From positions 2,046,001 to 2,110,000 of the forward strand of contig NZ_CP050265.1 in the NCBI RefSeq assembly GCF_011765465.1: 64,000 bases of DNA, given 5' to 3'. The translations under genes and the position numbers were made by a program. Positions 40,060 through 42,263 of this stretch are shown here, one piece after another. Each line of letters opens with the position of its first letter. Positions within the stretch are counted from its first letter, which is position 1. The notes beneath the pieces were generated by a model. The model was not told where the DNA came from. It did no database searches and saw nothing but the letters and a program-made list of their open reading frames with translations. This stretch comes from Erythrobacter sp. (GTDB taxonomy: Bacteria; Pseudomonadota; Alphaproteobacteria; Sphingomonadales; Sphingomonadaceae).

Positions 40060-41499
40060 ATGCACGATATCCGCCTGATCAGGGACGATCCCGAGGGCTT
40101 CGATGCCGGCCTCGCCCGGCGCGGCGCGGAGCCGGTCGCTAAGACGCTCCTCGCGCTCGACGAGCAACGCCGCGCGCTCACCACCCGCCTGCAGGAAGCC
40201 CAGAGCCGCCGCAACGAAGCCTCCAAGGCGATCGGCAAGGCGATGGGACAGGGCAACACCGAAGAGGCCGAAAAGCTCAAGGCCGAGGTTGCCGAACTGA
40301 AGCAGGCCATGCCCGAAATGGAAGAGCGGCTGGCGAAGGTTTCGGCCGAACTCGACCACGCGCTTGCGATCATCCCGAACATCCCCGCCGCCGACGTGCC
40401 CGAAGGCGCTGACGAGGAAGACAATGTCGAGGTCTCCCGCTGGGGAACCCCGCGCGAATTCGACTTCGAGCCGAAGGAACACGCCGACATCGCGCCCGCG
40501 CTCGGCATGGAATTCGAGACCGGGGCCAAGCTGTCGGGCGCGCGCTTCACCTTCCTGCGAGGCGACATGGCGCGCCTGCACCGCGCGCTCGGCCAGTTCA
40601 TGCTCGACAGGCAGGTGGGCGAGAACGGCTACACCGAATGCAACCCGCCCGTGCTGGTCAAGGACGAGGCGATGTACGGGACCGACAAGCTGCCCAAGTT
40701 CGCCGAAGACAGCTTTCAGACCGCAATCGAGATCGACCACGCTAGCTTTAAGGCGCAACTAATCGAAATTGCATCAAAACAAGTTGCGGCAAAGCGATTG
40801 GGCGACGATGAATCTGAGATCGAGCTTCTTGATCGGCTAGCGGGTATGGCAGCCGATCAGGCTAAGGAATTGCGAAGCGGAGGCCGCCGCTGGCTAATAC
40901 CCACCGCCGAAGTCTCCCTCACCGCGAGCGTCATGGGCGACATCCTCGACGCCGATGCCCTGCCCATCCGCCTGACCGCGCTCACCCAGTGCTTCCGCTC
41001 CGAAGCGGGCGCGGCGGGGCGCGATACGCGGGGCTTCATCCGCCAGCACCAGTTCGAGAAATGCGAGCTCGTCAGCATCGTGAAGCCCGAGGAGTCCGAG
41101 GCCGAACATCAGCGGATGCTCGCCTGCGCCCAAGGCGTCCTCGAGGCGCTCGGCCTGCCCTATCGCACCATGCTCCTTTGCACCGGCGACATGGGCTTCG
41201 GCGCGCGCAAGACCTATGATCTCGAGGTATGGCTCCCCGGACAGGGCGCATGGCGCGAGATTTCGTCCTGCTCCAACACCGGCGATTTCCAGGCGCGGCG
41301 GATGAAGACCCGCTACCGTCCGGAAGGCGAGACGAAGAAGACCGAATTCGTCCATACCCTCAACGGGTCGGGCCTCGCCGTGGGCCGCACCCTCGTCGCG
41401 GTGATCGAGAACTACCAGGAAGCCGATGGCAGCGTGGCCATTCCCGAGGCACTCCACCCCTACATGGCCGGCACGACCCGGCTGGAGCCGAAATCCTGA
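40060..41499 (+). CDS. serS: Seryl-tRNA synthetase with an unusual internal insert
   Basis: Charges tRNA-Ser with serine. The N-terminal coiled-coil arm (about 30-105) that grips the tRNA long arm is intact. The class II core is complete: [14 protein letters not shown] (about 161-174), motif 2 with [24 protein letters not shown], and motif 3 [19 protein letters not shown]. The length is 479 against 430 in E. coli. The excess sits between LPKFAEDSF (211-219) and WLIPTAEV (278-285), where about 45-50 extra, helix-prone residues are inserted. The DNA of this segment (about 40738-40900) is much lower in GC and uses different codons, although the frame is kept. The stop overlaps surE as TGATG. Confidence 0.94.
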
Positions 41500-42263
41500 T
41501 GCGCATCCTTGTCACCAATGACGACGGCTACCATGCCCCCGGCCTTGCCGTGCTGGAGGAGATCGCCGGGCAGTTCTCCGACGACGTGTGGGTCTGCGCC
41601 CCGTCCGAGGAACAGTCGGGTGCGGGCCATTCGCTCACGCTAAACCACCCGGTGCGGCTGCAGAAATTCGCAGAGCGGCGCTATGCCGTGACCGGAACAC
41701 CGACCGACAGCGTGATGCTGGCCTTGCGCGAAGTGCTCGACACGCCGCCCGATATCATCCTGTCGGGGGTAAATCGCGGGGCCAATCTCGGCGACGACAT
41801 CACCTATTCGGGCACAGTTTCGGCCGCGATCGAAGGGGCGCTCGCAGGGGTGCGCTCGATCGCATTGAGCCAGGTCTACAACGGCGAGACGCACGGGACC
41901 GAGGAGGAATTCGCCGCCGCGCGCGAATGGGGACCGAAAGTGATCGCCCCGCTGCTCGACGCGCCGTTTGCCGAGCGCACGCTCGTCAATGTCAATTTCC
42001 CGCCCCGCCCGGCGGGCGAGGTGCGCGGCATCCGGGTCGCGCGGCAGGGCTTCCACGATTACAAGCGCGGCACGGTGGTCGAGGGGCGCGACCCGCGCGG
42101 CAAGCCCTATTTCTGGTTCGGGCTCGACCCGATCGAGCACACGCTCGACCATGGGACCGATCTAGAGGCGATCGACGACGGTTATGTCGCCGTCACCCCG
42201 CTCCAGCTCGACCTCACCCATTACCCGACCATCGGCGCGCTGGCCGACCGGTTCAGCGGATAG
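41499..42263 (+). CDS. surE: 5'/3'-nucleotidase SurE
   Basis: Metal-dependent nucleoside monophosphate phosphatase linked to stationary-phase survival. The N-terminal signature [16 protein letters not shown] carries the metal-binding Asp pair (Asp8, Asp9). Downstream are the family motifs GTPTDSV and SGVNRGANLGDDITYSGTV, the latter with the metal-binding Asn. The length of 254 matches the family. The ATG overlaps the serS stop (TGATG), so the two are translationally coupled. The earlier in-frame extension lies inside serS and is not coding. A potassium channel gene follows after 23 bp. Confidence 0.96.
   Translation: MRILVTNDDGYHAPGLAVLEEIAGQFSDDVWVCAPSEEQSGAGHSLTLNHPVRLQKFAERRYAVTGTPTDSVMLALREVLDTPPDIILSGVNRGANLGDDITYSGTVSAAIEGALAGVRSIALSQVYNGETHGTEEEFAAAREWGPKVIAPLLDAPFAERTLVNVNFPPRPAGEVRGIRVARQGFHDYKRGTVVEGRDPRGKPYFWFGLDPIEHTLDHGTDLEAIDDGYVAVTPLQLDLTHYPTIGALADRFSG

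Follow-up and report, generated by a model that had tools for sequence, protein, structure and literature searches.

Restriction specificity domains, phage receptors and self-recognition loci contain polymorphic recognition regions that are kept diverse by conflict. In such regions, a fixed position bounded by conserved flanks is occupied by numerous divergent alleles that are shared across species, but the proteins concerned are surface or defence proteins, whereas seryl-tRNA synthetase (SerRS) is an essential cytosolic aminoacyl-tRNA synthetase. Since few cellular components are as conserved as aminoacyl-tRNA synthetases, a site resembling a recognition polymorphism would be unexpected in SerRS. 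Rickettsia palindromic elements are in-frame, peptide-coding inserts of low guanine-cytosine (GC) content in housekeeping genes, and animal cytosolic SerRS carries Insertion II in the gap before the TxE motif. Here we describe a low-GC segment in the same gap of the SerRS gene (serS) of Erythrobacter sp., found in a window of 64,000 nucleotides (nt) of forward-strand DNA (assembly GCF_011765465.1, contig NZ_CP050265.1, positions 2,046,001–2,110,000), to which all positions below refer. The segment is a cassette at a single exact site, which across species holds a great many unrelated or barely related in-frame inserts, with scattered presence, families that recur in distant hosts and constraint at the protein level in the closest families. 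No description of these inserts was found by title or abstract opening in the open-licence PubMed Central literature.

The window's serS gene (40060..41499, plus strand) encodes a protein of 479 amino acids (aa) and is the only SerRS match in the 3.3-Mb source genome. The protein fits the common bacterial SerRS type: it contains the Pfam domains Seryl_tRNA_N and tRNA-synt_2b, the body of its model superposes on the solved SerRS 6he3 (Z 47.1, root-mean-square deviation 2.1, 376 aligned), and Thr282, Glu284, Arg313 and Arg443 are invariant in 57 aligned rows. Upstream of the cassette lies the anchor LPKFAEDSF (residues 211–219; 40690..40716, plus strand), which is conserved in inserted and uninserted SerRS alike. 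The cassette itself (residues 220–277; 40717..40890, plus strand) stands in place of the six-residue turn RTTDDR of the nearest relatives, and it is followed by the anchor W-LIPTAEV (residues 278–285; 40891..40914, plus strand), which includes the TxE substrate-recognition motif, T282-A-E284. Measured between LPKFAEDSF and LIPTAEV, the segment comprises 59 residues (220–278; 40717–40893), compared to seven in the two closest relatives on the core tree (RTTDDRW in G070/L121 and RTTDERW in G026/L009), which gives a net excess of 52 aa. A preliminary description made from the sequence alone had recognized 45–50 surplus residues confined to this gap. The insert and its location are borne out, the excess is close to that estimate, and the proposed bounds (40723–40900) need adjustment, since they begin 6 nt inside the segment and end 7 nt past the conserved Trp codon.

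The SerRS core, meaning the protein with the insert removed, is 93% identical to that of G070, and the coding DNA flanking the insert is approximately 88–89% identical on both sides with no break at the junctions. The reading frame is preserved across the insert, as the preliminary description had noted. The segment has a GC content of 0.54 and a GC content of third codon positions (GC3) of 0.53, versus 0.67 and 0.86 in the remainder of the gene. As a control, we took the lowest internal 165-nt stretch of each of 223 open reading frames (ORFs) of at least 250 aa that passed our own composition filter in the window and 20 scattered 20-kb stretches of the same genome (464 kb in total). The internal drop in serS ranks first of 223 for GC and third for GC3, in line with the low GC and odd codons already remarked on in the preliminary description. 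The unusual usage extends into the 3′ flank, where residues 279–280 are encoded by CTA ATA (40894–40899).

AlphaFold2 models the window's SerRS with an overall predicted local distance difference test (pLDDT) score of 88.4 and values of approximately 74–83 in the insert. Two helices are predicted, spanning residues 227–246 (40738..40797, plus strand) and 253–275 (40816..40884, plus strand), in agreement with the helical character suggested earlier. In this model, the insert is predicted to form a helical appendage at the hairpin-tip turn that leads into the TxE serine-recognition loop. A 99-residue insert that does not cluster with the window's (L036) is also modelled as helical, with helices at residues 224–262, 271–291 and 294–310.

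The same site is occupied in many other genomes. Of the 110 SerRS, some of them duplicates, that were first taken from fetched loci, 31 have 46–99 residues at the exact position and 79 have a short turn. Insert-bearing laboratory strains include Erythrobacter longus DSM 6997 and E. donghaensis DSM 16220 (loci L036 and L046). Within the genus, a SerRS match is present in 111 of 114 genomes and a large insert, established by sequence, in 20; 32 others proved plain on rechecking, and most of the remainder were called plain from the length of the frame, from half-matches that abut or from one full match to the central part. An even draw from the order gives a match in 248 of 256 genomes, with a split match outside the genus in nine and an insert in all nine. 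At the level of the class, 376 of 385 evenly drawn genomes have a match, and 21 outside the order show a weak split match; 18 of these contain inserts of 33–117 aa, one (G655) has approximately 30 aa, and two (G421, G598) were not assigned a state, nor were two genus members with a broken gene (G032, G017). An even draw from the phylum (match in 382 of 398) added 18 alphaproteobacterial candidates, 11 with inserts of at least 45 aa and seven, all from one genus, with only 21–22 aa. Among the 247 non-alphaproteobacterial Pseudomonadota with a match, the two-match screen yielded eight weak split candidates and no insert longer than 24 aa. As far as this screen can tell, large inserts therefore seem to be peculiar to Alphaproteobacteria. 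All counts outside the genus rest on it (split SerRS matches), and single weak half-matches could hide further inserts, both in the class, where the six checked were all of a divergent type, and in six genomes from outside Alphaproteobacteria.

The eight non-alphaproteobacterial genomes and seven genomes of family f178 were rejected as carriers of large inserts because they contain hairpins of only 18–24 aa. Families f208, f221 and f178 (L213–L230) have conserved extensions of this length on the same hairpin. These share the position of the large inserts, but they are near-identical among relatives and lie within 0.09 of the GC content of their gene, whereas the large inserts show a mean drop of 0.13. 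A divergent type of SerRS, with an N-terminal part only 26–35% identical and without the LPKF hairpin, occurs in two Sphingomonadaceae genera (g33 and g45; L168–L173) and in other alphaproteobacteria (L206, L207, L209, L211 and L212); six of each kind were fetched, and this type was left out of the counts.

Altogether we collected 70 distinct in-frame inserts of at least 30 aa, a set that excludes G655, missed by the splitting pattern, and L269, found later. They range from 33 to 117 aa with a median of 57, and many share a start of the form xT-hydrophobic and the ending RRW. Across 132 distinct SerRS, nearly all from Sphingomonadales, the gap is either 6–7 or at least 46 residues long, with no half-decayed lengths. 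An all-against-all comparison of the 70 inserts with trimmed ends gives 18 pairs at E ≤ 1e-3, with none at E ≤ 0.01 in shuffled controls. Clustering at E ≤ 1e-3 resolves ten clusters and 46 singletons, or approximately 56 sequence families. These clusters link hosts whose cores are 92% down to 58% identical: L189 and L237 share a family at 58.5% core identity, L046, L053 and L160 at 71–84% (71% for L046/L160), and L006, L008, L044 and L166 at 65–92% for the pairs compared (66% for L006/L166). A profile of the L046/L053/L160 family run against 298 genomes of the family found a single match, a new cassette allele at the same site of another SerRS. Together with the recurrence of insert families at this site in distant SerRS, this supports one origin proposed in the preliminary description, a recombined segment from a different serS.

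Searches for relatives elsewhere were negative. The L006/L008/L044/L166 profile gave one match outside SerRS in 357 genomes of the class (G621), which was rejected because a stop interrupts it and its locus yielded no SerRS; neither profile search thus returned a valid relative of the inserts outside SerRS. The window insert has no homolog in phage and plasmid records at E ≤ 1, nor does a 117-aa insert in plasmids or a 99-aa insert in phages at E ≤ 0.1. A 24-residue match on a viral contig (L243) was dropped as chance, as it lies outside the frame of every listed ORF of at least 60 aa. Against Pfam, PHROGs and PADLOC, 37 inserts produced only weak matches, each confined to a single member (best E 0.0037 for Pfam and 0.0057 for PHROGs and PADLOC), and the window insert matched nothing in Pfam (up to E 10), PHROGs or PADLOC. 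Inteins begin with Cys or Ser and end with His-Asn at their splice junctions and contain a splicing domain. The window insert starts with QT, ends with RRW and matches no Pfam family up to E 10, and an intein was rejected.

The low GC content of the window's cassette is typical of the set. In 68 of 70 inserts, GC falls below that of the rest of the gene (Wilcoxon p 4e-13, mean difference −0.13), and 53 have a lower GC than any window of equal length in their own core. Extraction of the insert sequences required open frames; in stop-tolerant genome searches, no stops were reported in the inserted genes listed.

To assess constraint, we compared 15 insert pairs with their own cores. The six closest pairs have a proportion of nonsynonymous differences (pN) of 0.15–0.25 and of synonymous differences (pS) of 0.70–1.01 in the insert, which indicates that inserts of the closest families are constrained as proteins; pS in the corresponding cores is 0.37–0.60. 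The other nine pairs have pN of 0.31–0.53, with synonymous sites near or past saturation. Judged by their divergences, the alleles of the six closest pairs seem to date back at least to the separation of their hosts.

Insert presence is scattered on the core tree, which was built by a quick method from 128 of the 132 distinct rows (41 with and 87 without an insert, four partial plain rows having been dropped) with support from the Shimodaira–Hasegawa-like approximate likelihood ratio test (SH-aLRT) only. Presence requires 35 changes, compared to a mean of 35.0 in 500 shuffles, 273 of which are as low; well-supported branches alone require 18. Close cores differ in state, as with the 67-residue insert of L163 beside L107 and L105, or L040 beside L060, and the near relatives of distant cores that share a family may carry another insert family or none. 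Insert-bearing genes match their nearest plain relatives up to the junction at about the whole-gene level, so any exchanged tract is either short or old. With Bonferroni correction for 498 tests, no position in the core covaries with the presence of the insert, which is therefore modular. This pattern, which again fits the recombined serS segment of the preliminary description, is not that of a single insert inherited vertically across the order with normal codon usage, and the independent occurrences in dozens of species make an assembly error very unlikely. The preliminary observation is thus confirmed and was understated, the class-wide hypervariable site lying beyond the view of a single sequence.

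We tentatively interpret the window segment as one allele of an exchangeable, hypervariable and functional cassette that is kept polymorphic by selection, most likely through an antagonist directed at SerRS, such as a phage or toxin; we give this reading a probability of roughly 45%. Alleles with and without the cassette would be exchanged by homologous recombination through the highly conserved flanks. Less certainly than this exchange, the appendage may protect SerRS from an antagonist that recognizes it, by altering or shielding the surface next to the active site; phage proteins, SerRS inhibitors and toxins that are secreted or injected are candidates. Costs of the cassette or a frequency-dependent advantage could keep the plain allele in the majority.

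Several observations weigh against this interpretation. The analysis turned up no antagonist, partner gene or phenotype, and a partner gene is not generally next door, since in the window, as in 23 of 41 insert-bearing loci, surE begins no more than 30 nt from the end of serS. Between hosts with a common insert family, similarity at the flanks does not consistently exceed that of the remaining gene, and hence no transfer tract has been caught directly. The ratio of nonsynonymous to synonymous divergence (dN/dS) is below 1 within families, reaching approximately 0.5 in the most diverged pairs, where synonymous sites are saturated, and so gives no direct sign of positive selection on individual residues. 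Strong codon bias in the core may explain part of the excess synonymous divergence of the inserts, and two of the 70 show no GC deficit relative to their gene. If selection by an antagonist is nevertheless at work, the cassette would point to a selective agent acting on SerRS, which is also pursued as a drug target, and swapping cassettes would provide a simple genetic handle. SerRS has been used in concatenated phylogenies (for example PMC3568101), where an exchanged segment in Alphaproteobacteria would call for caution.

A more specific version of selection by an antagonist, possible but on balance unlikely, is that the cassette is an exchangeable immunity module within an essential enzyme, guarding the rim of the active site from phage proteins or toxins that target SerRS, while phages bring a cassette-free SerRS of their own. 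If so, it would represent a new class of defence element, a hypervariable allele within a housekeeping gene rather than a defence gene. SerRS matches occur in 25 phage records, seven of which are Brevundimonas jumbo phages annotated with SerRS (three regions fetched: L245, L246 and L247). An IMG/VR contig (L244, 2001–3266) encodes a cassette-free SerRS 49% identical to the window's, and all three phage SerRS that we read (L244, L245 and L246) lack the insert. PMC8953757 reports a SerRS encoded by Citromicrobium phage RXM. The presence of SerRS in phages of Alphaproteobacteria is a circumstantial hint of conflict over this enzyme and bears equally on the broader reading of an antagonist. Set against it, the Citromicrobium phage is not among the 25 matching records, and phage-borne SerRS may simply support translation. 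The two Bacillus phage G records among the matches are weak, one being annotated as histidyl-tRNA synthetase. One of two Acinetobacter “phage” records (L248, CAKLQH020000002.1) resembles a bacterial chromosome (rplU, rpmA, lolA, serS, cysG); the same sort of contamination may underlie the Listeria, Enterococcus and Staphylococcus “phage” records with serS, which, like the gut records, are unannotated. In the three Brevundimonas jumbo phages (L245, L246 and L247), gcrA lies directly after the SerRS gene or one small gene later.

The alternative that survives best, though we regard it as unlikely, is a tolerated insertion hotspot, in which the surface hairpin accepts nearly any in-frame DNA and AT-rich foreign pieces are gained and lost at random without function. 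The huge diversity of the inserts, their low GC content, the lack of a compensating core residue and the modest 18–24-aa extensions of other lineages at the same hairpin would all be accommodated. Random gain does not readily account for the protein-level constraint in the closest families, for the same families in hosts whose cores are 58–73% identical, for the well-formed helices of both modelled inserts or for the two discrete length classes, and the two profile searches uncovered no relative of the inserts outside SerRS.

We also find it doubtful that the helices form a lineage-specific interaction module that binds a host partner (a translation factor, regulator or nucleic acid) and diversifies with it. 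Insertion II provides the precedent. In a phmmer alignment, residues 271–470 of the window's protein align to residues 259–460 of the human SerRS chain, and Insertion II (G254–N261) falls in the same gap; in PMC10817482, it is described as a feature of only eight residues, specific to higher eukaryotes, that lies close to the active site, contributes to DNA binding and is of negligible importance for aminoacylation. The alphaproteobacterial inserts differ in being 33–117 aa long, hypervariable, mostly low in GC and present or absent between sister species, and their scattered presence and many families contrast with the conservation of Insertion II within its clade. Only 20 of the 111 genus genomes with a SerRS match have the insert, which is thus missing from most close relatives. 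Sister species differ in insert presence, which makes an essential partner role unlikely.

Vertical descent of one ancient insert, with fast divergence and many losses, seems quite improbable. Occurrence across Alphaproteobacteria and the start and end shared by many inserts are what common ancestry would leave. Losses, however, would have had to recreate nearly the same short turn on dozens of occasions, insert presence is no less scattered than under shuffling of the labels, and families are common to distant cores while near relatives have another or none.

Least probable by far is the selfish in-frame mobile element of the Rickettsia palindromic kind suggested in the preliminary description: the inserts are in-frame, low in GC, patchy and helical where modelled, but most have no detectable similarity to one another, the one valid profile match is itself a SerRS, our searches place them at a single site in a single gene, the only match to the window's insert in its own genome is the serS insert itself, with no second copy, and none of the measures of palindromic DNA stands out over the 70 inserts (mean folding z −0.37, with four below −2; longest inverted repeat averaging 6.8 nt versus 6.5 in shuffles) or in the window's insert (folding z −0.59, longest inverted repeat 9 nt).

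Downstream of serS in the window lies surE (41499..42263, plus strand), an ordinary neighbour that overlaps serS by one base with no extra gene between them. Plain loci have surE at most 30 nt after serS in 76 of 91 cases. Among insert-bearing loci, 14 of 41 have a gap of 90–143 nt between the two genes, as do 13 of 91 plain loci, and surE was not found in three insert-bearing loci. By eye, most gaps of this size consist of palindromes resembling repetitive extragenic palindromic (REP) sequences (GTTCGCCCTGAGCTTGTCGAAGGGC..., CGTCATCCTGAACTTGTTTCAGGAT...), as in L002, L036, L046, L117 and others; these are absent from the window. An approximate Fisher test on the gaps (15/23 versus 13/76), made without correction for the tree, gives p 0.004. 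Three further loci, one insert-bearing and two plain (L039, L027 and L089), have gene-sized serS–surE gaps of 841–885 nt.
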